Assembly: GCA_022844345.1 (NCBI GenBank)
Contig: JALHLU010000012.1
Span: 1-64,000, forward strand
Source of the DNA: Hyphomonadaceae bacterium
GTDB lineage: Bacteria > Pseudomonadota > Alphaproteobacteria > Caulobacterales > Hyphomonadaceae
Length of the DNA stretch: 64,000 bases
Direction of reading: 5' to 3'
Shown one piece after another: positions 478-39,206 of the stretch. A model generated the notes under the pieces. The model saw only the letters and a program-made list of their open reading frames with translations. It was not told the origin of the DNA and did not search any database. The translations under genes were made by a program, and so were the position numbers. Every line of letters begins with the position of its first letter. Positions within the stretch are counted from its first letter, which is position 1.

Positions 478-1764
478 TCAGTCCACCCAGTCCTTCTTGA
501 TCCTGAAGCTCGCCAGGAACAGCAGAAGCGCGGCCACGAGGTAGAAGGACAGACCGATGATGAAGGCGTACTTGATCGACTCGTCCCCAAGCGACGGCTT
601 CAGGCGCTCCGACATGAAGCCGAAGAACCATGTGCCCACGGCGATCCCGATCAGGTTGTTGATCAGCAGGAACAGCGCCGAGATCATGGTGCGCGAATTG
701 GCGGGCCCCAGATGCTGCACCGCCGTGAGGATCGGTCCCAGCCACACAAGGCCCAGCGCCTGCGGAACCAGGAACACGAAGAACGCAATGAACGGATCGG
801 TGGTCAGGACGCCCAGAACATAGAGCGGAGCCGAGATCGCGAACGCCACCGCCGGGATCAGCGGGTAATAGCGCTTCGACTTCGCCCCCAGCCGGTCGCC
901 CAGGAAACCGCCCAGCATCATGCCGGCGACGCCGCCGAAAAAGAGAATGCCGGCGAGATACCAGGAGCGATCCACCAGCCCCAGATTCATCGACCGGTCG
1001 AGGAAAGTCGGCATCCAGTACAGCAGGCCATAGCCCACCATCGAGGAGAACGCCGCGCCCAGCGACATCAACCAGAAGCTCGGCTTGGCAAACGCCAGCC
1101 GGCACGCCGGCAGGAAGCCGAGCGCCTTCGCGCCCACGGGCTGCGCGTCATACAGATTGCGCGGCGGATCCTTCACCACGATCCGGAACACCGGAGCCAG
1201 CAGCACGCCGAACAGGCCGATGGAAATGAAGGCAAAACGCCAGTCGACATACTGTGCCAGCAGGCCGCCAAACAGGATGCCCGCCGCCGACCCGACCGGA
1301 ATGCCGAACGAATAGATGGCCAGCGCCCGCGAGCGCTGCTTCGGCGGGAAATAGTCCGCGATCAGGCTGTAGGCCGGCGCAACGCCGCCCGCCTCGCCGA
1401 CGCCCACGCCCATGCGCGCAAAGAACAGCTGCACGAAATTCCCGGTGAGCCCGCACAGCGCGGTGAACGCCGACCAGATGCCCAGCGCCCACGTCATGAT
1501 CCACACGCGCGACTTGCGGTCGGCCAGCCACGCAACCGGTATCGCAAGTGTCGTGTACAGCAGCGCGAACGCCAGCCCACCCATCAACCCGAGCTGCTCA
1601 TCATTGAGCTGCAGCTCCTTGCCGATCGGATCCTTGAGGATCGAGATGATCTGCCGGTCGAGGAAGTTGAGCGTGTAGACGAGGATCAGCATCGCCAGCG
1701 CGATGTATCGCCCTTTCACCGGCGCAATCGGCGCCCCGCTCGCATCAGGACCAGAAGCTGGCAT
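478..1764 (-). CDS. MFS transporter, spinster-like
   Basis: Predicted inner-membrane major facilitator of 428 residues with about 12 hydrophobic segments. The first runs through LAMLILVYTLNFLDRQIIS, and the NFLDRQ element is typical of spinster-like MFS proteins. The loop after TM2 has the expected LADRKSR, and GVGEAGGVAPAYSLI marks TM4-5. The ATG at 1764 was chosen because AAGGAGGAG lies just upstream; an upstream in-frame ATG at 1860 would add 32 basic, non-membrane residues. It follows the TonB-dependent receptor on the same strand, 108 bases downstream with a hairpin between them. It probably moves the receptor's substrate, or a product of it, across the inner membrane. The substrate cannot be read from sequence. 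Confidence 0.88.
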   Translation of the reverse strand: MPASGPDASGAPIAPVKGRYIALAMLILVYTLNFLDRQIISILKDPIGKELQLNDEQLGLMGGLAFALLYTTLAIPVAWLADRKSRVWIMTWALGIWSAFTALCGLTGNFVQLFFARMGVGVGEAGGVAPAYSLIADYFPPKQRSRALAIYSFGIPVGSAAGILFGGLLAQYVDWRFAFISIGLFGVLLAPVFRIVVKDPPRNLYDAQPVGAKALGFLPACRLAFAKPSFWLMSLGAAFSSMVGYGLLYWMPTFLDRSMNLGLVDRSWYLAGILFFGGVAGMMLGGFLGDRLGAKSKRYYPLIPAVAFAISAPLYVLGVLTTDPFIAFFVFLVPQALGLVWLGPILTAVQHLGPANSRTMISALFLLINNLIGIAVGTWFFGFMSERLKPSLGDESIKYAFIIGLSFYLVAALLLFLASFRIKKDWVD

Positions 1765-1789
1765 CAGGCTCCTCCTTAAAGAATATGCC

Positions 1790-1812
1790 CGGACGTGGTG
1801 TTGCCACGTCCG
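1790..1812 (-). terminator. Hairpin between receptor and MFS genes
   Basis: A perfect 9-bp stem, CGGACGTGG (1790-1798) with CCACGTCCG (1804-1812), has a 5-base loop. On the minus strand it is followed by GGCATATTCTTT rather than a clean T run. It may be a weak terminator, or an mRNA 3'-end stabiliser that lets the receptor be made in excess of the transporter. Confidence 0.4.
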
Positions 1813-1872
1813 AGCCAGTTTCAGCCCGCGCTGGGGGAGAGCCCGCGCGGACCTGCGCAATCAGATCAGATA

Positions 1873-4644
1873 CTAGAACTCGTGTGCGAGGCTCACCCAC
1901 CAGGTGCGCGGGTCGCCATAGAATGCCGTCAACGTCCCTTCGCGGCCAAGCGTCGGCGTCACGACGTTGGTGGTCGGGTTGATGCTGACGAAGTTATAGC
2001 CGGCGACCTTGTAGCGCTCATCGCCCAGGTTCTTGCCGTGCACGCCAATGGACCAGCCTTCGTCGCTGCGGAAGACAGCGCTCATGTCCCACAGCGTGAA
2101 GGCGTCCTGGTCGAGCAGCGGCATCGGCGTCTCGAACTGGCTGGACTCGCCGCGATAGGACAGCGAGTTCACCAGCGTCAGGTCGCCAGGCGTGGCCACC
2201 AGCGTGAACGGCGTCGTGTAGTTGATCCGCCAGCTGGAGGTCAGTTCCGGCGTGTTCTGGAACACGCGCTGGTTGGCGACATCGGCGCCCGTCGGGCCGA
2301 TGAACTCGTCGTACTTGGCGTCGATATAGCCGACCGACACCACGGTCGACAGTTCGTCACCCGCGGTGATCCAGTCTTCGCCGAGCACGGCCGTGCCGTC
2401 GAACTCGATACCCTTCAGCGTGGCGGCGGCCGCGTTGGTCGTGGCGCCCGTGAAGGTGTCGTTGATGCCGTCATTGTTGGTGTCGACGCCGATCGAGGAG
2501 GGAACCTGCACGTCGGAGTAATCCATCCAGAACGCGGCGATGTTGGTGGTGAACCTGCCTCGCTCCCAGATCGATTTCACGCCGACTTCGTAGCTATTCA
2601 CCGTCTCCGGTTCGAACTGCATGAAGTCGAAGATCTCGTCGGCATCACGCGTGCCGCTCAGGTCCGTGTCCGGCGCGGCCGAGGTCTGGCCGCGCGGGTC
2701 GAAGCCGCCGCCCTTGAAGCCCTTGGCGTAGGTTCCATAGACGTTGTGGTCCGGCGTCGCGTCCCACGCCAGCGACACACGCGGAGAGAAGTCCGTGAAG
2801 GTGTCGTTGCCATCGAAGTTGGACGTGGTGGCGATCGGAACAGCCGTTCCGCCGAACAGCGGCGAATACCCGCCCGCGAACGTCCGGCGCAGGATCTGCG
2901 CGGTGCGCTCGTCGTTCGTGTAGCGGCCGCCAACCGACAGGTGCAGGTCGGGAGAGAAGTCGTAGGTGAAGTCCGCAAACACCGACCACGTCTTGGTGTT
3001 GACGTCGCCATAGGTCTGGGCGTTGAGGCCCGGAATGCTGATGATGGCCCCCGTCGTCGCGAGCACCACGTCGAAATAGGTCAGCGCATTGGCGTCGAGA
3101 TAGTAGACGCCAATGAGGCCATTCAGGTTGTCGCTGGTGTAGAGGAATTGCAGTTCTTCCGAGAACTGGTCGTTCTCGTAAATTGCCGGAACATCGACGT
3201 CGATCGCGGGCAGCGAGTCGAAGTCGATCGGCGTGGTCGATTCATCCTGGCGATAGGCGAGGATATTCTTGATCGTCCAGTTGTCGGAGAAGTCCCACGT
3301 CGCAACAACCGAGCCGCCATAGGCTTCCGAACGCTGGTCCGGCGTGATCAGGCCTGCGCGCGTGTCATAGACATCGCTCAGCACAGGCGCGCCAGTCTGC
3401 AGGCTGGGGATCAGGCGGTGGCCCTGTTTCGGGTCCGACTTGTCGAGCAGGTAGTCCGCCGAGAAGCGCACATCCATCGTGTCGGTGACGTCCCACTCCG
3501 CCTGCAGGCGGGCTGCGGTCACGTCCTTGCTGTAGTTCTCGACGCCAGGCTGGACGAGGTTGTCGCCATAGCCGGCACGCGTCAGCTTCGCGAGCGCGCC
3601 GCCGATACGGAAGGTCTCCGTGATCGGCGTCGAAGCGCTCAGGATGCCGTCGAGCCGCGAATAGCTGCCCGCGTTGACCGTCAGCTTCATCGACGGATCA
3701 TTGCTCAAGCCGCGCGTGACATACTTCACCGCGCCGCCGATCGTGTTGCGGCCGTAAAGCGTGCCCTGCGGTCCGCGCAGCACCTCGATGCGCTCCACAT
3801 CGAACACGTCGAGCACAGCGCCCTGCGGGCGGTTGAGATAGACGTCATCCAGATAGATGCCGACGCCAGCCTCGAAGCCGCCGACCGGATCCTGCTGGCC
3901 AACGCCGCGGATGAAGGCTGACAGCGTAGAGTTTGTGCCGCGCGAAACCTCGAGGGTCACGTTCGGCGAGAACTTTCCGACCTCGGTGAGGTCCGCCGCG
4001 CCGATGTCTTCCAGATCGTCGCCGGAGAAGGACGAAACCGACAGCGGAACTTCCTGCAGGTCCTGCTCGCGGCGCTGGGCCGTCACGACGACCACGTCGC
4101 GCACGGACGGATCTTCAGCGTCCTGCGCATAGGACGGGGCGGAGAAAGCGCCAACGATGAACGCTGATGCGCCAGAAAGAAGGGTGGCTTTGGTTTTAGG
4201 TGACACGGGATCCTCGCCTTTGTCTGTTTCTATGGGCGAGATCCTCACGACCCCGTCCCGAACCAGACCGCCGGATAGTCCCGTGTTGCGAAGAAGCGTG
4301 TTCAGCGCTTCGTCAAAGGTGTACCGACCCGATAACGGTGCAACCCGTATCTTCTCGGCCATGTCGTAAGGAAAAAGCAGCTGCACGTTTGTCTGACGCG
4401 CAAGCTCGAGCAACGCATCGGCAAGCGATGCGTCCCGGATCTGGATGTCGTAGACAGTTGAGCCCTGCTGGGCCGCCGCCTCCTGCAGTCCAGACAGCCC
4501 GCCAATGGCGAGCACGCTGCACAGCACGACCGTCCTGATCCAGCTCCGTCCCTTTCCTCCCTCATGGCGCGACTGTCGGACGTCCCTCAGGAAATCTCCG
4601 TCGGCCTTGAAGCTGACGACAGGCGCGTGACGGAAATCCTCCAT
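1873..4644 (-). CDS. TonB-dependent receptor with N-terminal STN domain
   Basis: Outer-membrane, energy-coupled uptake channel of about 923 residues. In order it has an export signal with a long basic n-region (hydrophobic core VVLCSVLAIGGLSG), an STN domain at about residues 62-135 (DASLADALLELARQTNVQLL), a second signal-peptide-like stretch at about 148-174 ending SAPSYAQ, a plug domain (VVVTAQRRE, then VLRGPQGTLYGRNTIGG) and a 22-strand-type barrel ending in Phe (SLAHEF). The STN domain is the module that talks to a FecR partner, and fecR and the sigma gene lie directly upstream. The start is uncertain: ATG 4644 is used, ATG 4695 is possible, and neither has a strong ribosome-binding site. 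The plug and barrel resemble the broad IroN/FyuA-like receptors used for many substrates, so an iron role is not implied. Confidence 0.92.
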   Translation of the reverse strand: MEDFRHAPVVSFKADGDFLRDVRQSRHEGGKGRSWIRTVVLCSVLAIGGLSGLQEAAAQQGSTVYDIQIRDASLADALLELARQTNVQLLFPYDMAEKIRVAPLSGRYTFDEALNTLLRNTGLSGGLVRDGVVRISPIETDKGEDPVSPKTKATLLSGASAFIVGAFSAPSYAQDAEDPSVRDVVVVTAQRREQDLQEVPLSVSSFSGDDLEDIGAADLTEVGKFSPNVTLEVSRGTNSTLSAFIRGVGQQDPVGGFEAGVGIYLDDVYLNRPQGAVLDVFDVERIEVLRGPQGTLYGRNTIGGAVKYVTRGLSNDPSMKLTVNAGSYSRLDGILSASTPITETFRIGGALAKLTRAGYGDNLVQPGVENYSKDVTAARLQAEWDVTDTMDVRFSADYLLDKSDPKQGHRLIPSLQTGAPVLSDVYDTRAGLITPDQRSEAYGGSVVATWDFSDNWTIKNILAYRQDESTTPIDFDSLPAIDVDVPAIYENDQFSEELQFLYTSDNLNGLIGVYYLDANALTYFDVVLATTGAIISIPGLNAQTYGDVNTKTWSVFADFTYDFSPDLHLSVGGRYTNDERTAQILRRTFAGGYSPLFGGTAVPIATTSNFDGNDTFTDFSPRVSLAWDATPDHNVYGTYAKGFKGGGFDPRGQTSAAPDTDLSGTRDADEIFDFMQFEPETVNSYEVGVKSIWERGRFTTNIAAFWMDYSDVQVPSSIGVDTNNDGINDTFTGATTNAAAATLKGIEFDGTAVLGEDWITAGDELSTVVSVGYIDAKYDEFIGPTGADVANQRVFQNTPELTSSWRINYTTPFTLVATPGDLTLVNSLSYRGESSQFETPMPLLDQDAFTLWDMSAVFRSDEGWSIGVHGKNLGDERYKVAGYNFVSINPTTNVVTPTLGREGTLTAFYGDPRTWWVSLAHEF

Positions 4645-4780
4645 CGGGAGGGAGCAAAGATCGCGAATTTCTTTTTGAGGGGAGGCAAGAGACATGCTTG
4701 CCGCAGCGTCTCGCTGGTCTTTCGCAGTTGCAGCAATGCCGGTAAGTTCACCCTGCGGGGCGCCGCAAGCTGCAATCGTC

Positions 4781-5797
4781 TCAGGGATCCTGGCTGACGA
4801 TGCGCACGAGTCTGTCGTCGATGCGTTCAACACGCACCCCGAAGTTCGTTTCGAGGGCTTCGAGCATATCGTCGACTTCACCCAGACCGAATACCCCGCC
4901 GACTCGCATGTCGGCTAGGTCTTGTGTGTCAAACTCGAAACGGATGTCGGCGTAGCGTGAGATATCGGCCACGACACTCGACAAGGCATCGCCAGAGAAG
5001 ACCAGCTTGCCGTCCGTCCAAGATAGCTTGCGATCGATTGCATCAAGGTCGATCCGGTCGATCACCACGCTTTCGCCAAACAGCGCCGTCTCGCCTGCGG
5101 CCACAAAGGCGACCGGCTCGGGCGCCGGGACATCGGCCACGCGCGAATAGGACACCTTGCCCTCGGAGACGACCACCTGGACATAACCTTGATCCAGCCG
5201 CACCGAGAACGCCGTTCCCACAGCAACCGTCACGCCGTCCCCGGCATAGACGCTGAATGGCCGGCCGGGATCATGCGCCACCTCGAAGAAGGCCTCGCCT
5301 TCCAGCAGGCGGATCGTCCGCTCCTTGTCGGTCATGCGCGCTTCAATGCGGCTGGCCGTGTTCAGCGTCACCACAGAGCCATCAGCCAGCGTGATCTTCT
5401 CCTGGTCGCCAACATCGGTCTTGTAGACGCCAAGGCCCGGCTGCTCCGCCACCTGCGTCGCAGGCGCGCCGGACCCCGAAAACTGTGTCACGCCAACGAT
5501 CACGGCGAACGCCACAGCTGCGGCCATGCCTAGTCCCGCCCACAACGCGGGGCGCATAAGCAGCGGCTTCTCGGCCGGCGTGTCGGCCAGACCGGCCAGC
5601 ACGTCGAGATCGCTCCAATGCGCAGAAAGACGTGCAAAAGCATCAGAATGTGCCGGGCCGGCCTGTTTCCAGACCTCGAACTGCGCCTGCTCGGCGGGCG
5701 TCAGCGGTCCCTCAGCATGGCGCACAACCCAGCGCGCCGCCTCGTCCTCGACGGGCGAGCGGTCCGGGAAGTTCACGATGTTGCCCGTAGGGCTCAT
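4781..5797 (-). CDS. FecR-family anti-sigma regulator
   Basis: Inner-membrane sigma regulator of 338 residues. The N-terminal DUF4880-type cytoplasmic domain includes DEAARWVVRHAEGPLTPAEQ. One membrane helix follows at about residues 83-105. The periplasmic FecR domain has the typical ITLADGSVVTLN and RTIRLLEGEAFFEVAHD elements, and the C-terminal DUF4974/STN-like domain ends the protein. Its ATG overlaps the sigma-factor stop codon (ATGA), so the two are translationally coupled and made in fixed ratio. The periplasmic half is expected to contact the STN domain of the receptor encoded next, passing on receptor occupancy. Confidence 0.93.
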   Translation of the reverse strand: MSPTGNIVNFPDRSPVEDEAARWVVRHAEGPLTPAEQAQFEVWKQAGPAHSDAFARLSAHWSDLDVLAGLADTPAEKPLLMRPALWAGLGMAAAVAFAVIVGVTQFSGSGAPATQVAEQPGLGVYKTDVGDQEKITLADGSVVTLNTASRIEARMTDKERTIRLLEGEAFFEVAHDPGRPFSVYAGDGVTVAVGTAFSVRLDQGYVQVVVSEGKVSYSRVADVPAPEPVAFVAAGETALFGESVVIDRIDLDAIDRKLSWTDGKLVFSGDALSSVVADISRYADIRFEFDTQDLADMRVGGVFGLGEVDDMLEALETNFGVRVERIDDRLVRIVSQDP

Positions 5798-6369
5798 TCC
5801 CCGTCTCCAGCTCGGAGGCGGCGTACATTATCGGCTTCCCGCAGGGAAGCGCGACCAGGGTCAAAAGGCTCCCGGCGGGCCATGAAATCCCGCGTAAGCA
5901 GCAGCGCCTTGGCGAGATGCTTCTCAACCGTGCTCTCAGCAATGCCGAGCCGGGCGGCGATCTCGCGCTGCGACAGGCCCTCGATCTTCTTCATCACGAG
6001 CACCTTCCGGCATTGGCTGGGCAGCGCGGCCACCGCTTTGGCGAACAGCGCCAACCGCTGCTTGCCATCCACGACCTGCTCCAGTCCGGGCTGGGTATTG
6101 CTCCCAATGACATCCGGCTGCTCGAAATCCTCTACCGAATCTGTTGCGGAATTCTTCCTGCGCGCGATTTCGTTGAGTGCGACATGCTTGGCCACCCGGA
6201 AAAGGTAGGCCCGCGGCATCAAGATCGGCCGCTGCGCCTCCATCGCGTAGGCGCGCACGAACACCTCCTGCAGCATGTCATCGACATCCTGCGAACGCGC
6301 GAAAAAACGGCCGAGATACCGTCTCAGGGCCGGCTTGCTCGCTTCATACTCGTTGAGGATGCCCGACAT
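5794..6369 (-). CDS. ECF sigma factor, FecI-like
   Basis: RNA polymerase sigma-70 family protein of 191 residues. Region 2 (RYLGRFFARSQDVDDMLQEV) supplies the -10 contact and core binding. Region 4 (LPSQCRKVLVMKKIEGLS, then a helix-turn-helix REIAARLGIAESTVEKHL) contacts the -35. Length and layout match FecI-type ECF factors. Gene order sigma - fecR - TonB receptor on one strand is the classical cell-surface-signalling arrangement. Likely target promoters lie before the receptor and perhaps in the gap shared with the divergent GMC gene at 6576. Confidence 0.93.
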   Translation of the reverse strand: MSGILNEYEASKPALRRYLGRFFARSQDVDDMLQEVFVRAYAMEAQRPILMPRAYLFRVAKHVALNEIARRKNSATDSVEDFEQPDVIGSNTQPGLEQVVDGKQRLALFAKAVAALPSQCRKVLVMKKIEGLSQREIAARLGIAESTVEKHLAKALLLTRDFMARREPFDPGRASLREADNVRRLRAGDGE

Positions 6370-6575: not shown

Positions 6576-8309
6576 ATGCAGGACCTGTCCCAGGGCACGC
6601 GCGAAGCGCGCACATTCGACGCCATCGTCGTCGGCAGCGGCATAGCCGGCGGCTGGGCCGCCAAGGAGCTCTGCGAGAAGGGCCTCAAGACCCTCGTCCT
6701 CGAACGCGGCCGCAAGGTCGAGCACGGCAAGGACTACAAGACCTTCGCCATGAACCCGTGGGACTTCCGCTTCCCGAACGGCCGCACGCCGCTGGACGAA
6801 GTCGAGAAGCACTACCAGAAGCAGCAGCGCACGGGCTACACGGTGAACGACCAGTGGAACCACTGGTTCGTGAAGGATGACGAACACCCGTACACCGAAG
6901 TCAGCCGCTTCGACTGGATCCGCGGCTATCACGTCGGCGGCCGCTCCATCACCTGGGGCCGCCAGAGCTATCGCTGGAGCGATCTCGACTTCGAAGCCAA
7001 CGCACGCGAAGGCGTCGGCGCCGACTGGCCGATCCGCTATGCCGACCTCGCCCCCTGGTACGATCACGTCGAACGCTGGATGGGCGTCAGCGGCACGAAT
7101 GAAGGCCTGCCACAACTGCCTGATGGCGTGTTCCAGCCCGCAATGGAATTCAACGTCGTCGAGAAGGGCTTCAAGGGGAAGGTTGAGAGCAAATTCCCCG
7201 AACGCCGCGTCACCATGGGCCGCACCGCTCACCTGACCAAACCCACCGACGAGCAGATGAAGATCGGGCGAGGCACCTGCCAGACGCGCAATCTCTGCAT
7301 GCGCGGCTGCTCCTTCGGCGCCTACTTCTCTTCCAACGGTGCAACGCTCATCGCCGCCGACCACACAGGCAACATGACGCTGCAACCGGACTCGATCGTC
7401 ACCGAGGTGATCTTCGACAAGACGGCCAACAAGGCCACCGGCGTCCGCGTGCAGGACGGCATCACGGGCAAGACCACCGAATACTACGCCAAGGTGATCT
7501 TCCTCAACGCCTCCGCGCTCGCCACCACGTGGATCATGCTCCACTCAAAGAGCGACCGCTTCCCGAACGGCTTCGGTAACGACTCGGACGAACTCGGCCG
7601 CAACGTGATGGACCACCACTTCCTCGCCGGCGCACAGGCGGAAGTGGAAGGCTACGAAGATCGTTACTACTCCGGCCGCCGCCCAACCGGCATCTATGTA
7701 CCTCGCTTCCGTAACCTCGGCACCGAGGCGACCAAGCAGAAGGACTTCACGCGCGGCTATGGCTACCAGGGCGGGGCAAGCCGCACCGGCTGGCAACGCC
7801 TCGTCGCCGAGATGGGCTTCGGCAAGGAGCTGAAGGACGAAATCTCCGAACCCGGCAACTGGACGATGGGCCTCACCGGCTTCGGCGAAATGCTGCCCTA
7901 TCGCGACAACCGCGTCTGGATAAACAACGACGTCAAGGACGTGAACGGCCTGCCGACACTGACCATGGACGTAACCATCCGCCAGAACGAACTCAACATG
8001 CGCAAGGACATGCAAGCCTCCGCCGTCGAGATGATGGAAGAGGCGGGCTTCAAGAATGTCCGCCCGTACGATCGCCCCTACGCCCCCGGCCTCGGCATCC
8101 ACGAGATGGGCACCGCCCGCATGGGCCGCGATCCGAAAACCTCCGTGCTGAACGCCTTCAACCAGGTCCACGCCTGCACCAACGTCTATGTGACGGACGG
8201 CGCGGCGATGACGTCTGCTGCCTGCGTCAACCCCTCGCTCACCTACATGGCCCTGACCGCACGCGCGGCCGACCACGCCGTCAACGCGCTCAAGCGCGGC
8301 GAACTCTAG
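6576..8309 (+). CDS. GMC-family dehydrogenase, glycoside 3-dehydrogenase-like large subunit
   Basis: FAD-dependent sugar oxidoreductase of 577 residues. The FAD-binding GSGIAG is at residues 20-25. The substrate-domain end has the GMC active-site pair His509 (in HEMGTARMG) and Asn552 (in CVNPSLT). Cys235, Cys241 and Cys245 form C-x5-C-x3-C, the spacing seen around the iron-sulfur site of FAD-dependent glucose/sorbitol dehydrogenases. There is no signal peptide. The next gene encodes a Tat-type small subunit 12 bases downstream, so export as a folded complex is likely. By family the enzyme oxidises a sugar hydroxyl, and the neighbourhood points to carbon 3 of a glycoside. No cytochrome c subunit is encoded nearby. 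Confidence 0.88.
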   Translation: MQDLSQGTREARTFDAIVVGSGIAGGWAAKELCEKGLKTLVLERGRKVEHGKDYKTFAMNPWDFRFPNGRTPLDEVEKHYQKQQRTGYTVNDQWNHWFVKDDEHPYTEVSRFDWIRGYHVGGRSITWGRQSYRWSDLDFEANAREGVGADWPIRYADLAPWYDHVERWMGVSGTNEGLPQLPDGVFQPAMEFNVVEKGFKGKVESKFPERRVTMGRTAHLTKPTDEQMKIGRGTCQTRNLCMRGCSFGAYFSSNGATLIAADHTGNMTLQPDSIVTEVIFDKTANKATGVRVQDGITGKTTEYYAKVIFLNASALATTWIMLHSKSDRFPNGFGNDSDELGRNVMDHHFLAGAQAEVEGYEDRYYSGRRPTGIYVPRFRNLGTEATKQKDFTRGYGYQGGASRTGWQRLVAEMGFGKELKDEISEPGNWTMGLTGFGEMLPYRDNRVWINNDVKDVNGLPTLTMDVTIRQNELNMRKDMQASAVEMMEEAGFKNVRPYDRPYAPGLGIHEMGTARMGRDPKTSVLNAFNQVHACTNVYVTDGAAMTSAACVNPSLTYMALTARAADHAVNALKRGEL

Positions 8310-8321
8310 GAGGCATGACCA

Positions 8322-8912
8322 ATGCTTGATCGTCGCGAACTCCTCCACCGCGCCTCGCTGCTTCTCGGCGGCGCCATCTCCGCCAGCGCCGCAAGCGGCA
8401 TCCTCGCCGGCTGCGTCGCCATGCCCGGCGCAGCAACAGGCGGAGGGCTCCTCTCTGCCGAGGAGACCGCCTCTCTGACGGCCATGGCCGACCAGATCAT
8501 CCCGAAGACCGACACCCCCGGCGCACTCGATGTCGGTGTTCCCGCCTTCATCGACCGCATGCTCGCTGGCTACTACCAGCAGCGCGAGCGCGACGTGATC
8601 CGCTCCGGACTGCAGAAAGTGAACGCAGACGCACAGGCCCTGCGCGGCGTGTCGTTCCCTTTGCTGACCGGCGACGAACAGGTCGAACTGATGAAGCGCT
8701 ACGATCGCGAACAGTACGATTACACCCGCGCCAATACGAGCACGACGCCCGCGCCGCCGCCACACTTCTTCCGCCTGGTGAAGGAACTCACCATCCTCGG
8801 CTTCTGCACGTCGGAAGCCGGCGCCACCAGGCTTATGTACTACAACCCGAACCCCGGCCCCTATCGCGGCGACCTGCCGCTGTCGGAAGTCGGCAAGGTC
8901 TCGGCGCTTTAG
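8322..8912 (+). CDS. Gluconate 2-dehydrogenase subunit 3 family protein (small subunit)
   Basis: Small subunit of the preceding GMC enzyme, 196 residues. The N-terminus has a twin-arginine start (DRRELLHRAS), a hydrophobic core and a lipobox-like LAGC, so it is probably a Tat-exported, possibly lipid-anchored protein. The family hallmark MADQIIPKTDTPGALDVGVP follows at about residues 54-73. Small subunits of this family are needed for folding and export of their GMC partner. The gene starts 12 bases after the GMC stop and is followed after 24 bases by the monooxygenase gene. Confidence 0.88.
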   Translation: MLDRRELLHRASLLLGGAISASAASGILAGCVAMPGAATGGGLLSAEETASLTAMADQIIPKTDTPGALDVGVPAFIDRMLAGYYQQRERDVIRSGLQKVNADAQALRGVSFPLLTGDEQVELMKRYDREQYDYTRANTSTTPAPPPHFFRLVKELTILGFCTSEAGATRLMYYNPNPGPYRGDLPLSEVGKVSAL

Positions 8913-8936
8913 ACCCACGCAATCGGAGAAAGCGCC

Positions 8937-10544
8937 ATGCCACAGTCCCTCGACATGGTGATCGTCGGCGCGGGCTTCTCCGGTCTGTACATGCTGCACA
9001 GGGCGAGGGGCCTCGGCCTCTCCGCCTGCGTGGTCGAAGCCGCCGATGGCGTCGGCGGCACATGGTACTGGAACCGTTATCCCGGCGCGCGCGTGGACGT
9101 GGAAAGCCACGAATACTCCTATTCGTTCTCTCCCGAACTCGAAGCCGAATGGAAGTGGAGCGAGCGCTACGCCGCCCAGCCCGAACTCCTGCGCTATCTC
9201 AACCACGTAGCAGACCGCTTCGACCTGCGCCGCGACATCCGCTTCGAAACCCGCGTCACCTCCGCCGTGTTCGACGAAGCCGCAAACCGCTGGACCGTCA
9301 CCACACATCGCGGCGACCGCATCTCCGCCCGCTACTGCGTCATGGCCACCGGCTGTCTCTCCGCGCCGAAGAAGATCGACATCCCCGGCGCCGACAGCTT
9401 CAAGGGCGAAGTCTACAACACCACCAACTGGCCCGAAGCCGGCGTCGACTTCACCGGCAAGCGCGTCGGCATCATCGGCACAGGCTCATCCGCCGTGCAG
9501 ACCATCACGGAGATCGCGCCCCACGTCGGCAGCCTCCACATCTTCCAGCGCACGCCCAGCTTCTCCGTCCCCGCCCACAACGGCCCGGCCGATCCCGAAG
9601 CCGTCCGCAACTGGCGGGAAAACCGCGAAGCCAATCGCCAGGCCGGGCGCGAGAATCCCATCGGTATCGTCGCTGCGGTCTTTTCAGACAAGCTCGCAGT
9701 GGAGACGCCTGCCGAAGAACGCAACCGCATCTACGAAGAACGCTGGGCGAAAGGCGGCTTCGCCATCGGCGGCGCCTTCGCCGACACGATGATGACGAAG
9801 GAAGCCAACGACACCCTGGCCGGCTTCGTCGCCGACAAGGTCCGCGCCGTCGTGAAGGACACCGCGATTGCCGAAAAACTGATTCCGCGAACCTACCCCA
9901 TCGGCACGAAACGATTCTGCGTCGACACCGGCTACTTCCAGGTCTTCAACCAACCCAACGTCACCCTCGTCGACATTGCCAACGCATCCGTCACCGTGAC
10001 CCCCAAGGGCGTGAAATCAGGCGACACCGAATACGAATTCGACTGCCTCATCTTCGCGCTGGGCTTCGACGCGATGACCGGCGCGCTGTCAAAGATCGAC
10101 ATACGCGGCCGCGATGGCATGGCGCTGAAAGACAAATGGGGCAGCGGCCCACGCACCTATCTCGGCCTCATGGTTTCCGGCTTCCCGAACCTCTTCCTCG
10201 TCACCGGCCCCGGCAGCCCCTCAGTGCTATCCAACATGGTCGTCTCCATCGAACAGCACATCGACTGGATCAGCGACTGCATCGCCGCCCTCGGCCAGCG
10301 CCAGATGGACGCCATCGAAGCCACACCCGAAGCCGAGCAGGGCTGGGTCGCCCACGTCAACGAAGTCGCCAACATGACGCTCTATCCCCAAGCCAACTCC
10401 TGGTACGTCGGCGCCAACGTCCCCGGCAAACCCCGCGTCTTCATGCCATACCCCGGCGGCGTCGGCATCTACCGCCAACTCTGCGATGCGGCCGCTGCGA
10501 AGGGATATGAGGGGTTTGCACTGACGTCGTCGGCGCAGCGATAA
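8937..10544 (+). CDS. Flavin-containing monooxygenase, Baeyer-Villiger-like
   Basis: NAD(P)H- and FAD-dependent monooxygenase of 535 residues, predicted cytoplasmic. The FAD motif GAGFSG is at residues 11-16, followed by GVGGTWYWNRYPGARVD, typical of Baeyer-Villiger/FMO proteins. The second Rossmann motif is GIIGTGSSAVQ. The intervening fingerprint reads F155-x-G157-x3-N161-x3-W165-P166. Type I Baeyer-Villiger enzymes have His at the Asn161 position. GGAGA lies before the ATG. Members insert oxygen next to a ketone or oxidise S/N atoms. A ketone-forming GMC enzyme lies upstream in the same run, so a keto-sugar or an aglycone ketone is a conceivable substrate. That is inference. Confidence 0.87.
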   Translation: MPQSLDMVIVGAGFSGLYMLHRARGLGLSACVVEAADGVGGTWYWNRYPGARVDVESHEYSYSFSPELEAEWKWSERYAAQPELLRYLNHVADRFDLRRDIRFETRVTSAVFDEAANRWTVTTHRGDRISARYCVMATGCLSAPKKIDIPGADSFKGEVYNTTNWPEAGVDFTGKRVGIIGTGSSAVQTITEIAPHVGSLHIFQRTPSFSVPAHNGPADPEAVRNWRENREANRQAGRENPIGIVAAVFSDKLAVETPAEERNRIYEERWAKGGFAIGGAFADTMMTKEANDTLAGFVADKVRAVVKDTAIAEKLIPRTYPIGTKRFCVDTGYFQVFNQPNVTLVDIANASVTVTPKGVKSGDTEYEFDCLIFALGFDAMTGALSKIDIRGRDGMALKDKWGSGPRTYLGLMVSGFPNLFLVTGPGSPSVLSNMVVSIEQHIDWISDCIAALGQRQMDAIEATPEAEQGWVAHVNEVANMTLYPQANSWYVGANVPGKPRVFMPYPGGVGIYRQLCDAAAAKGYEGFALTSSAQR

Positions 10545-10559
10545 GGCGTCGCACCATCC

Positions 10560-10681
10560 CCGCTCGTCCTGACGAAAGTAAGGACCCAGGGCTGACGGCG
10601 AGGCTTGTTCTGCCTTGCAGCTTCAATCCCATTGGAGGTGCGCCACCGTTCCTGGATGCTGACCTTCGTCAGCATGAGCGG
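10560..10681. repeat. Imperfect palindromic repeat, family A copy 1
   Basis: Arm 10560-10590 is the imperfect reverse complement of 10651-10681 (about 24 of 31 positions match). The core of the arm is CTGACGAAAGT. The middle contains GGCTTGTTC and AGCTTCAA, which recur in copy 2 at 16168-16290. The element fills the gap between two convergent genes and could form a long hairpin, ending transcripts from both sides. Confidence 0.75.
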
Positions 10682-10716
10682 AACTGGATCGATACGCTTT
10701 CCTCGATGCCCTCCAA

Positions 10717-11511
10717 CTACATCCGCAACACCTCAATCTTGCGAAACTCAATCGGATTTCCCTCGCTCTGCAGCGAGATCGTCCCGCCATCCAGCATCAG
10801 CTTGCCGCCCGCCGCCGCAACCAGTGGCTTCGAGTTCGCCATCTTCCCCTCGGGATCAAGCTGCACGGCGGAATAGACGATAGTCACCTCGCCATTCACC
10901 TTCTGCGTCACCGTCCCGTCTGCTGCGACTTCCACCTCGAACAGATGCCACTGGCCATTGGGCGCCGAAGGCGTCTTCGAGTTGATGCAGTGCGTCGTCT
11001 CCAGCTTGCCGTCGATCACCACATTCGTGCCGGGCGAACACATATTGCCGTTGAACCGCGTCTGCCCCGGGGCCGGCCCCAGCAGCTGCGCCTCCACCGA
11101 CACCGGAAAGCTGTCGCCTACGGCCATGCCCTTCGGGTCCTCCCCAAAGATCATCACGCCCGAATTGGCGATCGCCCACGCCGGCGTGTCCGCCGGATGC
11201 GTCTCCGAGAACCTGTATTCGAGGCGCAGTCTGTACGGACCGCGAATGGCGTCCTTGTAGAACAGGTGCCCGAACCGCTCGCCGAACTGGTCATACTTGT
11301 CATAGCTGACCGTGATGGCCCCATCGCGCACCTGGAATGTGTCGCGATAATTCTCGCCCAGCGGGAAACCGCGAATCTTCGGCGTCCACCCGTCCAGCGT
11401 CTTCCCGTCGAACAGCGACTCCCATCTCTCGCCGCTTTGCGGCATTGCGGTGCAGCCCGCCATCCCAAGCGCGATGGCCGCAACGGCAACAACCTTCAAA
11501 AGCCCCCGCAT
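10717..11511 (-). CDS. DUF1080 lipoprotein (3-keto-disaccharide hydrolase family)
   Basis: Predicted periplasmic lipoprotein of 264 residues. Signal MRGLLKVVAVAAIALG ends in lipobox MAGC. The mature protein opens with the family signature ESLFDGKTLDGWTPK and has a lectin-like beta-sandwich pattern (SGVMIFGEDPKG, then QWHLFEVEVAADGTVTQKVN). Family members cleave or hydrate 3-keto-glycosides produced by a 3-dehydrogenase. ATG 11511 was chosen for GGAGG five bases upstream; the frame extends to 11583 without support. It is the only minus-strand gene inside the cluster and is divergent from the MFS gene, so it probably has its own promoter in 11512-11647. Confidence 0.85.
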   Translation of the reverse strand: MRGLLKVVAVAAIALGMAGCTAMPQSGERWESLFDGKTLDGWTPKIRGFPLGENYRDTFQVRDGAITVSYDKYDQFGERFGHLFYKDAIRGPYRLRLEYRFSETHPADTPAWAIANSGVMIFGEDPKGMAVGDSFPVSVEAQLLGPAPGQTRFNGNMCSPGTNVVIDGKLETTHCINSKTPSAPNGQWHLFEVEVAADGTVTQKVNGEVTIVYSAVQLDPEGKMANSKPLVAAAGGKLMLDGGTISLQSEGNPIEFRKIEVLRM

Positions 11512-11647
11512 GTCGTCCTCCAAAAACCCGCACCAATGATCCCGCGTCGATCTTGTGGACAGGCGCTGCCGCGCGGGTAACACTCACCATCAGATCATGA
11601 GCCGAGCGCTGGCGCGAGACCAGAGCAGGCGCAGGGGAGAACGCCAA

Positions 11648-12934
11648 GTGATTCAGACACGCCTGTTCCTGATGATGCTGCTCCAGCTCGCCATCTGGGG
11701 CGCCTACATGCCGAAGCTGTTCCCGTACATGGGCCAGCTCGGCTTCGAGCCTTGGCAGCAGTCGCTTATCGGCAGCTCGTGGGGCGTCGCCGCCATCCTC
11801 GGCATCTTCTTTTCCAACCAGTTCGCGGACCGCAACTTCTCGGCCGAACGCTTCCTCGCTGTCAGCAACGTCATCGGCGGTGTAGCGCTACTGGGCTGCG
11901 CCTACTTCACCGACTTCTGGTCCTTCTTCGGCTGCTATCTCGTGTTCAGCCTGGTGTTCGTACCCTCGATGTCAGTCGCCAACGCACTTGCGTTTGCCAA
12001 CCTGCGCGATCCCGCTGGCCAGTTCGGCACGATCCGCATGGGTGGGACGATTGGCTGGATCCTCGTGAGCTGGCCCTTCTTCTTCCTCCTTAGCGCCGAC
12101 GCCGGCCCCGAGCAGGTACGCCTGATCTTCGTGGTCGCCGCCATCGTCTCGTTTGCCTTCGCGGCCTACAGCCTGACGCTGCCCCATACGCCGCCGAAAC
12201 GTGACGCCGGCGACACCGACCCGCTGGCCTGGCGCAAGGCGATCAAGCTTCTGGGCATCCCCTCAGTGGCAGCGCTCTTTCTCGTCACCTTCATCGACAG
12301 CACCATCCACAATGGCTACTTCATCATGATCGATCGCTTCCTTACGGAACGCGTCGGCATCAACGCCAATGTCAGCATGATCGTGCAGAGCGTCGGCCAG
12401 ATCGCCGAGATCGTGACCATGTTCGTGCTGGGCTTTGTGCTGATCCGGCTCGGCTGGAAATGGACGATGATCGTCGGCATCCTCGGCCACGCCGCTCGCT
12501 TCCTGGCGTTCGCCTTTTTCCCGGAAAGCGAGCCGACCACGATTTTCGAGTTCAGCATGGTGAGCGGCGGGGTCGAAAGCCCTGTAATTATCTCGGATCA
12601 CGTGCTGATGATTGCCGGCGTGCAGCTGCTGCACGGCATCTGCTACGCCTTCTTCTTCGCGACGGTGTATATCTTCGTCGACGCCGCTTTCCCGAAGGAT
12701 GTCCGCTCCAGCGCGCAGGGCCTGTTCAACCTGCTGATCCTCGGCATCGGCAACGTGGCGGCCAGCTTCCTCTTCCCGCCGCTGATGGCCCAATGGTCCG
12801 ATCCCGCCACGGGCGCAGTTGATTTCCGCACGCTGTTCATGGTTCCCGCCGGCATGGCGTTCGTTGCTATCCTGCTCATGGCCGTGTTCTTCCGTCCCAC
12901 CGAGCGGGCGCCGGCAAGCGTCGCAGCAGTATGA
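11648..12934 (+). CDS. MFS transporter, NupG-like nucleoside/sugar:H+ symporter
   Basis: Inner-membrane transporter of 428 residues with about 12 hydrophobic segments. The opening RLFLMMLLQLAIWGAYMPKL is typical of the nucleoside:H+ symporter family (NupG/XapB-like). The GTG at 11648 was chosen for GGGGAGA eight bases upstream; an in-frame ATG at 11597 would add 17 mostly polar residues. In carbohydrate clusters with TIM-barrel epimerases and Gfo/Idh/MocA enzymes, members of this family carry sugar derivatives, so import of a keto-sugar released in the periplasm is the likely role. The next gene starts 21 bases downstream. Confidence 0.87.
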   Translation: MIQTRLFLMMLLQLAIWGAYMPKLFPYMGQLGFEPWQQSLIGSSWGVAAILGIFFSNQFADRNFSAERFLAVSNVIGGVALLGCAYFTDFWSFFGCYLVFSLVFVPSMSVANALAFANLRDPAGQFGTIRMGGTIGWILVSWPFFFLLSADAGPEQVRLIFVVAAIVSFAFAAYSLTLPHTPPKRDAGDTDPLAWRKAIKLLGIPSVAALFLVTFIDSTIHNGYFIMIDRFLTERVGINANVSMIVQSVGQIAEIVTMFVLGFVLIRLGWKWTMIVGILGHAARFLAFAFFPESEPTTIFEFSMVSGGVESPVIISDHVLMIAGVQLLHGICYAFFFATVYIFVDAAFPKDVRSSAQGLFNLLILGIGNVAASFLFPPLMAQWSDPATGAVDFRTLFMVPAGMAFVAILLMAVFFRPTERAPASVAAV

Positions 12935-12955
12935 GTCTCTCCAATGGAGCCCATC

Positions 12956-13936
12956 ATGATGGACCTCTCCCGCCGCCGCTTCATGCAGGCCCTCGCCGCA
13001 TCCGGGGCCGCCGCGCCTCTTGCCGCCGCGTGCCAAAACTCTCAAGGAGTGGCCATGCCTAGCGGCCCCTTCTTCCAGAGCCGCTCCGAGATGATCGGCA
13101 TCCAGCTCTACACGCTGTCCGACATGCTCGCGACCAACCTCGATGGCGCCGTCGCAGGCGTTGCGAAGATCGGCTACCAGTCCGTCGAAATCCCGTCCTA
13201 CATGGGCAAGACGCCCGCCCAGCTGCGCCAGCTGTTCGACAGCCACGGCGTCAAATGCACCGCCGCCCACATCCAGATGGCGCCGGGCACAGCCGCCGCC
13301 CCCGGCCTGCGCGGCGATCTCGGCCAGCTCGCCGCCGACATGCATGTGCTGGGCGCAACGCACATCTACGCCCCCTCCATGCCGGCGCCCACAGACATCG
13401 GCCTCACGCCAAACGCAGGCGAGGGCTACGCCTTCATCGTCCGCGTCGCCGAAGCCATGGGCGCCGATCGCTGGAAGCGCTTCGCCGATGAACTCAGCGA
13501 AGTTGGAGCCAAGCTGAAAGCCAGCGGCATCGGTTTTGGCTACCACAACCACAACTACGAATTCGCGAAGGCCGGCGATCGCACCGGCTTCGACATACTC
13601 GTTCAGGAGAGCGATCCTGATGCCGTCTCCTTCGAACTCGACATCGGCTGGGCCGCCGCCGCGGGCCAGGACCCCGTCGCGCTCTTCCAGAAATACTCCG
13701 GCCGCTACACCGGCATGCACATCAAGGACATCAAGGCCACCACCCAGCCCAACATCGCCCTCAAGATGGACCCGTCAGACGTCGGCGCCGGCCGCCTCGA
13801 CTGGAAAACCATCCTCCCCGCCGCCCACAAGGCAGGCGTCCGCAACTTCTTCCTCGAACAGGAACCGCCTTTCGCAACATCGCGGATGGAAGCGGCTGAA
13901 AATGGCTATAAGTTCCTCAGCACACTGGAAGCCTGA
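12956..13936 (+). CDS. Sugar phosphate isomerase/epimerase-like TIM barrel, exported
   Basis: Xylose-isomerase-like TIM-barrel protein of 326 residues with a twin-arginine signal: SRRRFMQALAASGAAAPL, then a cysteine (AAAC) that may be lipidated. The barrel has IGIQLYTLSDM at strand 1, GYHNHNYEF at the metal-site His/Asn/Glu strand, ELDIGWA and MHIKDIKA for further ligands, and FLEQEPP near the end. These keep a divalent-metal site for enediol chemistry. ATG 12956 (or 12959) fits TGGAG upstream. Tat export places it in the periplasm with the GMC complex and DUF1080 protein, suggesting it acts on 3-keto-sugars there (isomerase, epimerase or lyase). The downstream paralogue lacks a signal. Confidence 0.88.
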   Translation: MMDLSRRRFMQALAASGAAAPLAAACQNSQGVAMPSGPFFQSRSEMIGIQLYTLSDMLATNLDGAVAGVAKIGYQSVEIPSYMGKTPAQLRQLFDSHGVKCTAAHIQMAPGTAAAPGLRGDLGQLAADMHVLGATHIYAPSMPAPTDIGLTPNAGEGYAFIVRVAEAMGADRWKRFADELSEVGAKLKASGIGFGYHNHNYEFAKAGDRTGFDILVQESDPDAVSFELDIGWAAAAGQDPVALFQKYSGRYTGMHIKDIKATTQPNIALKMDPSDVGAGRLDWKTILPAAHKAGVRNFFLEQEPPFATSRMEAAENGYKFLSTLEA

Positions 13937-13947
13937 GGACTGACGAC

Positions 13948-15006
13948 ATGAAGACCATGAAAGGCCCCGGCATCTTCCTCGCGCAATTCGTGGGGCCGGA
14001 TGCGCCGTTCAACTCGCTGCCCACCATCGCGAAATGGGCGAAGGACAAGGGCTTCATCGGCGTCCAGATCCCCACCGGCGAATCCTCCCTGTTCGACCTG
14101 CGCAAGGCCGCGGAAAGCGACGCTTACTGCGACGAGATCAAGGGCATGCTGAAAGACATGGGGATGGAGATCACCGAACTCTCCACCCACCTGCAGGGCC
14201 AACTCGTCGCCGTCCACCCGGCCTACGATACGCTGTTCGACGCCTTCGCCCCCCCGCAGGTGCGCGGCAATCCGACGGCGCGCCAGGAATGGGCCGTCGA
14301 ACAACTCATGCTCGCCGCCAAAGCCTCACGCCGCCTCGGCCTCGACGCCAGCGTGACTTTCTCCGGCTCGCTCGCCTGGCCCTATTTCTTCCCATGGCCG
14401 CAACGCCCGCCAGGCCTCTTCGAAACCGCCTTCGAAGAACTCGCCAAACGCTGGCTGCCAATCCTCAACGCCTATGACGATGCCGGCGTCGATCTCTGCT
14501 ACGAAATCCATCCGAGCGAAGACCTGTTCGACGGCACGACGTTCGAGATGTTCCTCGACCGCGTGAAGGGTCACAAGCGCTGCAACATCCTGTTCGACCC
14601 GAGCCATTTCTGTCTGCAGCAGCTCAACTATCTCGAATACATCGATCTCTATCACGAGCGGATCAAGATGTTCCACGTCAAGGACGCGGAGTTCAATCCG
14701 ACCGGCCGTCAGGGTGTTTATTCGGGCTATGCGCCGTGGCTCGAGCGCGCCGGCCGCTTCCGCTCCGTCGGCGATGGGCAGGTGGACTTCAAGGGCATCT
14801 TCTCCAAGCTCGCCGGCTACGATTACGAAGGCTGGGCCGTGCTCGAATGGGAATGCTGCATCAAGCACCCCGAAGACGGCGCGCGCGAAGGCGCACAGTT
14901 CATCCGCGATCACATCATCCGCGTCACGCCCCGCGCCTTCGACGACTTCGCCGCCAGCGGCACCGACGAGAAAGCCAACCGCCGCCTGCTGGGACTGGAC
15001 CGTTGA
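13948..15006 (+). CDS. Sugar phosphate isomerase/epimerase-like TIM barrel, cytoplasmic
   Basis: TIM-barrel protein of 352 residues without a signal peptide. Metal-ligand strands are visible: CYEIHPSEDLF (Glu, His), CNILFDPSHF (Asp, His), MFHVKDAEF (His, Asp) and VLEWE (Glu). It starts 11 bases after the exported paralogue, and its stop is overlapped by the start of the oxidoreductase gene. This family, with a Gfo/Idh/MocA partner, typically interconverts keto-sugars or inositol-like compounds in the cytoplasm. It is not closely similar to its neighbour, so the two probably catalyse different steps. Confidence 0.9.
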   Translation: MKTMKGPGIFLAQFVGPDAPFNSLPTIAKWAKDKGFIGVQIPTGESSLFDLRKAAESDAYCDEIKGMLKDMGMEITELSTHLQGQLVAVHPAYDTLFDAFAPPQVRGNPTARQEWAVEQLMLAAKASRRLGLDASVTFSGSLAWPYFFPWPQRPPGLFETAFEELAKRWLPILNAYDDAGVDLCYEIHPSEDLFDGTTFEMFLDRVKGHKRCNILFDPSHFCLQQLNYLEYIDLYHERIKMFHVKDAEFNPTGRQGVYSGYAPWLERAGRFRSVGDGQVDFKGIFSKLAGYDYEGWAVLEWECCIKHPEDGAREGAQFIRDHIIRVTPRAFDDFAASGTDEKANRRLLGLDR

Positions 15007-16142
15007 GAAGACTTCGCCTCGGCATGGTCGGCGGCGGCGAGGGCGCCTTCATCGGCGGCGTCCATCGCATGGCCGCGCGCCTCGATGGCCATTGGGATCT
15101 CGTCGCCGGCAACTTCCAGTCCGACCCTGACAAATCCATCGCCTTCGGGAAATCGATGGGCCTCGCCCCTGACCGCGCCTATGCCGACTTCCGCAGCATG
15201 GCCGCCGCCGAAGCCAAGCGCGCTGACCGCATCGACGCCGTCGCCATCGTCACGCCCAACTCCACCCATCATGCGATAGCCCGCGAATTTCTCACCGCCG
15301 GCATCCCCGTCATCTGCGACAAGCCTCTAACCATCACGCGCCGCCACGCCGATGATCTCGCCGATCTCGTCGCAACCACCGGCCTGCCATTCATCCTCAC
15401 GCACAACTATTCCGGCTACGCCATGCCGCGTCAGGCCCGCGCGATGATCGAGGCTGGCGAACTCGGAAATCTCCGTATCGTGCAGGCGGAATACGCGCAG
15501 GACTGGCTCGCCACCGAACTCTCCGGCAACAAGCAGGCAGACTGGCGCGGCGATCCAGCGCGCGCCGGCCCCGGCGGCGCACTCGGCGACATTGCCACCC
15601 ACGCCTTCCAGCTCGCCGAATTCGTCACCGGCCTGAAAACAGAAACCATCGCCGCAGACCTCGAAGCCTTCGTCCCCGGCCGCAAGATCGACGACAACGT
15701 CAACATCATGCTGCGCTTCAATGGCGGCGCGAAGGGCATGCTCTGGGCCAGCCAGGTCGCCACCGGCTCGGTCAACGGCCTCAAGCTCCGTGTCTTCGGC
15801 GACAAGGGCGGCCTCGAATGGGCGCAGGAAACGCCCGAGACGCTCCTGTTCACGCCACTGGGCGGCCAGCAACGCATCCTTCGCCGCGGCGGCGCGGGCG
15901 TCTCGGCATCAGCAACGCACGCAACAAGGGTCCCCGGCGGCCACCCCGAAGGCTATCTCGAAGGCTTCGCCCAAATTTACACCGACGCCGCCGAGCTCAT
16001 CCGCGCGCATGGAGAGAACCGCGCACCCCGCGCTTTTGGGAGGCTTGCACCGGGCCTTTCAGATGGCGTTCGCGGCGTCGCCTTCATCGAAGCGGCAATT
16101 GCGTCGAGCAATGCAAATGGTGCGTGGACGAAGATCGTGTAG
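15003..16142 (+). CDS. Gfo/Idh/MocA-family oxidoreductase
   Basis: NAD(P)-dependent sugar oxidoreductase of 379 residues. The Rossmann start LRLGMVGGGEGAFIG needs the TTG at 15003, since the first in-frame ATG (15024) would remove the first beta strand. The TTG overlaps the previous stop as TTGA, implying coupled translation. The conserved catalytic-Lys motif is CDKPLT, and the C-terminal domain carries GGALGDIATHAFQLAEF with the active-site His/Asp pattern. Family members oxidise or reduce ring hydroxyl/keto groups, and in 3-keto pathways they reduce the 3-keto sugar back to the parent sugar. It is the last gene of the plus-strand run. Confidence 0.9.
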   Translation: MRRLRLGMVGGGEGAFIGGVHRMAARLDGHWDLVAGNFQSDPDKSIAFGKSMGLAPDRAYADFRSMAAAEAKRADRIDAVAIVTPNSTHHAIAREFLTAGIPVICDKPLTITRRHADDLADLVATTGLPFILTHNYSGYAMPRQARAMIEAGELGNLRIVQAEYAQDWLATELSGNKQADWRGDPARAGPGGALGDIATHAFQLAEFVTGLKTETIAADLEAFVPGRKIDDNVNIMLRFNGGAKGMLWASQVATGSVNGLKLRVFGDKGGLEWAQETPETLLFTPLGGQQRILRRGGAGVSASATHATRVPGGHPEGYLEGFAQIYTDAAELIRAHGENRAPRAFGRLAPGLSDGVRGVAFIEAAIASSNANGAWTKIV

Positions 16143-16167
16143 GGTTCATTTGGGCTCAGCCCCATCC

Positions 16168-16290
16168 CCGCTCATCCTGACGAAAGTCAGGATCCAGCGG
16201 CAGACCTCACGGCTTGTTCCGGCTTGGAGCTTCAAGCCAGTTCACGTGGCCCAATTGTTACTGGATTTCGACTTTCGTTGGAATGAGCGG
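16168..16290. repeat. Imperfect palindromic repeat, family A copy 2
   Basis: Arm 16168-16197 (core CTGACGAAAGTCAGGATCC) is an imperfect reverse complement of 16261-16290. It shares the GGCTTGTTC and AGCTTCAA core with the copy at 10560-10681. It occupies the gap between the convergent oxidoreductase and nadK genes. The two copies bracket the DUF1080-to-oxidoreductase half of the cluster. Confidence 0.75.
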
Positions 16291-16326
16291 AACAAGGTGA
16301 AACGTCTCAGCCGAGATCAATCAACC

Positions 16327-23084: not shown

Positions 23085-23140
23085 CCCGCTGCAGCAATTG
23101 TCATTTTTCGAACGAGTTCAAGCCGTCAGCAGGCGATCCT

Positions 23141-39031: not shown

Positions 39032-39060
39032 CCTCCGGACCGCTGAACTTCACCCGGCCT

Positions 39061-39133
39061 CTTGCCTCCCTCACTTGCAACGCGACTGGGGGAGGTGGCG
39101 CGCCGCGTCTTCGCGGCGCGACGGAGGGGGTCC
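39061..39133. repeat. CTCCCCCA/GGGGGAGG mosaic hairpin repeat
   Basis: A perfect 9-bp stem, CGCGCCGCG (39099-39107) with CGCGGCGCG (39112-39120) around TCTT, is flanked by GGGGGAGG and GGAGGGGG. It lies 30 bases after ispH and may act as its terminator. Motif style (CCTCCC...GGGGGAGG) resembles the repeats at 31186 and 58085. Confidence 0.55.
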
Positions 39134-39206
39134 ATCGTTGAAGCCAGCCGCATCTACCCTAACGGCGCCCCTTGCCTCCCAAGCCTCGCCGCTGCCTACT
39201 GCCTGC

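Follow-up and report, generated by a model that had tools for sequence, protein, structure and literature searches.

A Hyphomonadaceae gene cluster predicted to break down O-glycosides by oxidation, elimination, hydration and reduction, with an added clade-restricted monooxygenase

We analysed a 64,000-nucleotide stretch of a Hyphomonadaceae genome (GenBank assembly GCA_022844345.1, contig JALHLU010000012.1, positions 1 to 64,000; hereafter the window), in which positions 6576–16142 hold genes for a GMC dehydrogenase and its small subunit, a flavin monooxygenase, a DUF1080 lipoprotein, a permease, two TIM-barrel proteins and a Gfo/Idh/MocA oxidoreductase. We propose, with a probability of about 0.82, that this cluster serves O-glycoside catabolism by oxidation, elimination, hydration and reduction. 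A glycoside 3-oxidation and elimination pathway had been suggested earlier by a model given only the DNA letters and the open reading frames (ORFs), the sequence-only reading, and this core idea is supported by the homology of the two TIM-barrel proteins to the solved enzymes 8ro4 and AtOGE and by synteny in related genomes. When the ORFs of the window were scanned against Pfam and NCBIfam, every gene named in that reading was found close to where it had been placed, each with a significant family match:

6576–8309, plus strand: GMC1, FAD-dependent GMC dehydrogenase, large subunit of a predicted periplasmic glycoside 3-dehydrogenase (PF05199, E = 7.7e-20; PF00732, E = 1.7e-11)
8322–8912, plus strand: SSU1, Gluconate_2-dh3 small subunit (PF13618, E = 1.9e-34)
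8937–10544, plus strand: Baeyer-Villiger-type flavin monooxygenase (phenylacetone monooxygenase 1w4x, E = 5.9e-196)
10717–11508, minus strand: DUF1080a, lipoprotein of the 3-keto-disaccharide hydrolase/lyase family (3keto-disac_hyd, PF06439, E = 8e-29)
11648–12934, plus strand: NupG-type MFS permease, start inferred (PF03825, E = 2.7e-134)
12944–13936, plus strand: TIM1, AtOGE-like 3-keto-O-glycoside β-eliminase, predicted exported (AP_endonuc_2; 8bvk, E = 1.9e-26)
13948–15006, plus strand: TIM2 (HYD), 2-hydroxy-3-keto-glucal hydratase homologue, predicted cytoplasmic (AP_endonuc_2; 8ro4, E = 1.5e-170)
15003–16142, plus strand: Gfo/Idh/MocA oxidoreductase, predicted 3-keto-glucose reductase (PF22725, E = 2.6e-30; 3v5n, E = 6.4e-130)

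The gap between GMC1 and SSU1 is 12 bp, and the putative TTG start of Gfo at 15003 overlaps the TIM2 stop codon. Both TIM barrels are xylose-isomerase-like. DUF1080a lies between the monooxygenase and the NupG-type permease on the opposite strand, and the block is therefore not one operon.

TIM2 matched 8ro4, deposited as a 2-hydroxy-3-keto-glucal hydratase, over its full length (residues 1–350). The best Protein Data Bank match of TIM1 was 8bvk, which is AtOGE, the O-glycoside β-eliminase of Agrobacterium tumefaciens (PMC10628242). In that report His132, Asp163 and His189 of AtOGE are metal ligands, Glu233 is a weak ligand and His134 is catalytic (PMC10628242). Residues H201, H203, D233, H259 and E305 of TIM1 align with H132, H134, D163, H189 and E233 of AtOGE, so that the metal and catalytic residues of the Agrobacterium eliminase are the same here, and all five positions are invariant in 23/23 aligned TIM1 homologues.

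Cellular locations were predicted from signal motifs read by eye. Whereas the 259-residue AtOGE chain is aligned from its residue 7, TIM1 has an N-terminal extension with an RR motif and a lipobox-like sequence, from which export is predicted; a TAT signal model also matched (E = 4.9e-4), and a simple pattern found an RR motif, a lipobox-like motif or both in 22 of the 23 homologues. Export is likewise predicted for SSU1, which has the same two kinds of motif at its N-terminus, and for DUF1080a, whose N-terminus contains the lipobox-like GMAGC. No signal sequence was seen in TIM2, Gfo or the monooxygenase. The predicted exported eliminase and the predicted cytoplasmic hydratase would thus sit across the membrane from each other.

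From these assignments we infer the substrate, the C3 specificity of the dehydrogenase and the location and direction of each step. With SSU1 as its carrier, the GMC subunit would be exported by the Tat system, and the GMC enzyme would oxidise the sugar C3 hydroxyl in the periplasm, passing electrons to an acceptor that was not found in the cluster. TIM1, as a Mn-type β-eliminase, and/or the DUF1080 lipoprotein would cleave the 3-keto-glycoside into the aglycone and either 2-hydroxy-3-keto-glucal or a 3-keto sugar. The released keto sugar is predicted to be imported by NupG, after which cytoplasmic HYD would hydrate it to 3-keto-glucose and Gfo would reduce this to glucose. Following the Agrobacterium pathway, we assign Gfo the final, reducing step; a terminal 3-keto-sugar reductase appears more likely than a dehydrogenase of the BT_2158 type.

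The sequence-only reading had taken the Bacteroides 3-keto-glycan pathway as its precedent, and the DUF1080 and TIM-barrel families found here are reportedly also those of BT2156–2160. The Gfo protein, however, scored only 32.4 bits against the BT_2158 family model NF058561, far under the curated cut-off of 750, and here the GMC complex is likely the first oxidant. The GlycDH/OGE/HYD/Gfo operon of Agrobacterium and the lac cluster of Caulobacter provide a better precedent. With the former the cluster shares a GMC-type dehydrogenase, an AtOGE-type eliminase, a hydratase and a Gfo protein; compared with that operon, DUF1080, NupG and the monooxygenase are additions (PMC10628242). The same report presents the four-step pathway of Agrobacterium as widespread; its oxidation and elimination steps were assayed directly, and the evidence for hydration is preliminary. 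GlycDH was expressed there together with a Rhizobium sp. GIN611 protein of the Tat pathway (PMC10628242). The lac cluster of Caulobacter crescentus comprises LacABC, a DUF1080 protein, a transporter, two sugar epimerases and a sugar reductase (PMC9007349). Likened by description rather than by sequence, the gene kinds here form a near-identical list, including the nearby DUF1080 gene (PF06439), to which the monooxygenase is again added. Since these two systems have been described (PMC10628242, PMC9007349), the pathway itself is not new; the cluster appears to belong to this described kind, of which the added monooxygenase and the putatively exported eliminase would be variations. A search of the open-licence PubMed Central (PMC) literature found no publication dealing with 3-keto-glucal, hydratase and glucoside together. 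The cluster extends the record of the oxidation-elimination route to a further bacterial genus, in which the gene order is well kept; the role of the added monooxygenase would be its main novelty.

GMC1 matches at E ≤ 1e-60 were present in 27 of 101 genomes of the family. For the 15 of these with a GMC1 identity of at least 70%, the window's own genome (G000) included, the surroundings were fetched and mapped, and matches of 60 bits or less were dropped before counting. The usual order is GMC1–SSU1–[monooxygenase]–DUF1080a (reverse)–NupG–TIM1–HYD–Gfo–DUF1080b. Relatives as distant as 70–77% GMC identity still have the core set around GMC1, which argues that the grouping is not due to chance; its absence from related genomes, named beforehand as an outcome that would count against the pathway, was not what we observed. 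Of the proposed gene neighbourhood the core is conserved, with the exceptions given below; the monooxygenase, present in only seven of the 15 clusters, is not. DUF1080a lies beside GMC1 in 15/15 genomes and always on the opposite strand; a single operon that includes it was considered and is ruled out. Some clusters depart from the usual order. No HYD or Gfo match was found in the fetched stretch of G007, and no NupG match in the cluster stretches of G010, G035, G039 and G007; an MFS_1-family gene takes the NupG place in G035, G039 and G007, and the one ORF tested at that place in G010 gave no family match. In G045 and G048 the contig stops within the cluster.

In seven genomes SSU2–GMC2 follows DUF1080b on the other strand. 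In the window's own genome DUF1080b is not beside Gfo; it lies with GMC2 and SSU2 on another contig (C11:173019-176193, equivalent to L033:7105-10297). In this second module, which belongs to the main cluster in the seven relatives, the GMC protein shares 35% identity with GMC1 and has a small subunit of its own, and the DUF1080 gene is convergent with them.

Several observations weigh against the proposed pathway. The likeness of TIM1 to AtOGE is modest, and three other solved proteins named as isomerases or epimerases match it nearly equally well (E = 3e-22 to 3e-21). Among solved structures, GMC1 comes closest to the large subunits of fructose and glucose dehydrogenase, and other sugar dehydrogenases too are found among GMC enzymes with such a small subunit. 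The solved proteins nearest to Gfo, of which 3v5n is the closest, are named only "oxidoreductase". Caulobacter LacABC has three known components, the third of which is reportedly a cytochrome c; no counterpart was found in the cluster, and it may be encoded elsewhere in the genome. No CxxCH haem motif was found in GMC1, SSU1, DUF1080a or TIM1, and in a window-wide scan for this motif a single ORF, at 23090, passed the composition filter.

A wider survey speaks on both sides. Named genomes were scanned with a hydratase alignment, and the best 80 of at least 595 stretches were mapped over up to 10 kb on each side (often less), dropping matches of 50 bits or less. In favour of the pathway, Gfo was present at 74 of the 80 HYD loci. 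TIM1-like genes were present at only 16, GMC1-like at 11, SSU1-like and DUF1080-like at 9 each, NupG-like at 7, and GMC2-like and SSU2-like at 2 each. The scarcity of GMC1-, TIM1- and DUF1080-like genes indicates that other enzymes often partner HYD and Gfo. Mucilaginibacter (L100, L104, L115, L122), Hufsiella (L126) and Pedobacter (L144) do have loci at which a GMC gene, a small-subunit gene, a TIM1-like gene, HYD and Gfo stand together, and the set is therefore not peculiar to this lineage.

The kinship of GMC1 with fructose and glucose dehydrogenases would also suit a different arrangement, in which the GMC complex would be a common sugar or alcohol dehydrogenase delivering electrons to the respiratory chain and the TIM and Gfo proteins would handle inositol-like compounds. 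The inosose dehydratase model does pick up both TIM proteins, and the inositol dehydrogenase model picks up Gfo, all below the cut-offs. TIM1 and TIM2, however, match enzymes of the 3-keto pathway better, and DUF1080a is a constant neighbour of GMC1; we consider this alternative very unlikely and retain oxidation-elimination as the preferred reading.

The monooxygenase is homologous to phenylacetone monooxygenase over its full length, and its closest solved relatives are this enzyme and steroid monooxygenase (4aos). In 7 of the 15 clusters its gene separates SSU1 from DUF1080a; in the other eight it is absent from that place, and neither it nor the Fec-unit genes described below were found at any of the best 80 HYD loci. 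The gene is thus a clade-restricted addition and not, as had been proposed, part of the conserved set. Its presence requires two changes on the GMC1 tree: one such account is a single gain by the common ancestor of eight genomes with a loss in G060, another is two gains. The monooxygenase would have joined the cluster later, in one clade, and the seven clusters with it and eight without offer a natural contrast for the effect of the added oxygenase. The gene is under purifying selection, with dN/dS of 0.085–0.139 in four comparisons with G000 (pS 0.36 to 0.62, partly saturated) against 0.04 to 0.26 for neighbouring genes.

Type I Baeyer-Villiger monooxygenases carry the fingerprint FxGxxxHxxxW(P/D), as given in two reports (PMC6058054, PMC10682829). 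The cluster proteins deviate from it: where phenylacetone monooxygenase has the His, five of the seven have Asn, one has Ser and one has Thr. A second motif, (A/G)GxWxxxx(F/Y)P(G/M)xxxD, is present as GGTWYWNRYPGARVD, and its form GGxWxxxxYPGxxxD is shared with the phenylacetone and steroid monooxygenases. The enzyme looks functional and may have Baeyer-Villiger activity. The other homologues in the family are not linked to the cluster, and no cluster genes were found around the four whose loci were fetched (L184–L187; 64–68% identical). An APS kinase-type sulfate gene adjoins the homologue or lies one gene away in L185, L186 and L187, a thiolase-like gene stands beside it in L186 and L187, and in L184 CorA adjoins it, with an AMP-binding enzyme two ORFs off.

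What the monooxygenase does can be read in more than one way. It may be a passenger that was taken up next to the operon and is retained for a function unrelated to it, an explanation to which we give even odds: more than half of the clusters and all of the surveyed HYD loci lack the gene, and its homologues elsewhere sit among unrelated genes. A mere passenger would less readily explain why place and orientation are kept in seven genomes at 75–92% identity, with dN/dS values like those of the neighbours. This constraint, the position directly after SSU1 on the same strand and the kinship with phenylacetone and steroid monooxygenases would all suit an enzyme acting on the aglycone, whereby the clade would specialise in ketone glycosides (aryl ketone, steroid or terpenoid) and convert the freed ketone to an ester. 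Such a role is possible but doubtful, given the four unlinked loci, the lack of the gene in G060, which lies inside the clade, and the missing fingerprint His. We consider unlikely an arrangement in which the fingerprint-variant oxygenase acts on a pathway ketone, either the aglycone or the 3-keto sugar, which would be expanded to a ring-enlarged lactone, and in which an exported eliminase and the DUF1080 lipoprotein act side by side in the periplasm. In the open-licence PMC literature no publication joining 3-ketoglycoside, Baeyer-Villiger and gene cluster was found.

The absence of classical glycoside hydrolases from the window, asserted in the sequence-only reading, holds for the 54 gene-like ORFs scanned against Pfam, 14 of them at E ≤ 1e-3 and 40 at a stricter E ≤ 1e-10 that hides weaker matches. 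Its further claim that the organism uses oxidation-elimination instead of a glycosidase fails at the genome level, since one gene place each for GH3, GH13 and GH1 lies outside the window; among the families searched genome-wide (GH3, GH13, GH1 and the GH2 C-terminal domain), only the last was not found. A glycosidase-free organism is thereby ruled out. As to substrates, galactokinase and GalT genes stand just upstream of GMC1 in G010, and its cluster includes a sulfatase gene (L049:2873-5031, 14045-15388), hinting at galactose-bearing or sulfated substrates in that genome. The galK gene of this cluster has matches at E ≤ 1e-20 in 6 of the 15 cluster genomes but not in G000, and the case for galactose as an end product in the window's organism is weakened. 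The window itself encodes a sulfatase-family protein at 38739–40553, whose domain starts at residue 188.

Upstream of GMC1 and divergent from it, just outside the cluster, lies an uptake unit:

478–6369, minus strand: MFS1, FecA-like TonB receptor, FecR and FecI

The sequence-only reading had counted this Fec-type unit in the gene set. Receptor matches at E ≤ 1e-120 occur in 73 of the 101 genomes; GMC1 matches are lacking in 58 of these 73, and the receptor is missing from 12 of the 27 GMC1 genomes. It adjoins GMC1 in 3 of the 15 closest clusters (G000, G042, G027); it lies on a different contig in G014 and G045 and about 0.9 Mb away in G010, and gave no match in the other nine. By this distribution the unit is a separable adjacent module, and its membership in the pathway is rejected as improbable. 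An MFS1-matching permease stands beside the receptor in 10 of 11 fetched receptor loci; in eight the identity is only 35–36%, so it is not always the same permease. In the eleventh locus, L178 (43% G+C), the composition-based gene caller gave no genes. All eight neighbouring ORFs tested (8/8) proved to be an α/β hydrolase adjoining the receptor–permease pair, and in L065 the ORF one further along encodes a GST. Loci L173–L177 and L179–L183 show a TonB receptor, an MFS permease and, where tested, an α/β hydrolase, with FecIR beside the module in L173 and an AraC-type regulator in L175.

A dispersed palindromic repeat built on TCCTGACGAAAGTCAGGA occupies positions 10545–10716 and 16143–16326, the two copies being 76% identical over 135 bp. 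Its 18-base core has 60 matches in the genome at up to two mismatches, compared with none for the reversed control, and the cores often occur in facing pairs about 90 bp apart.

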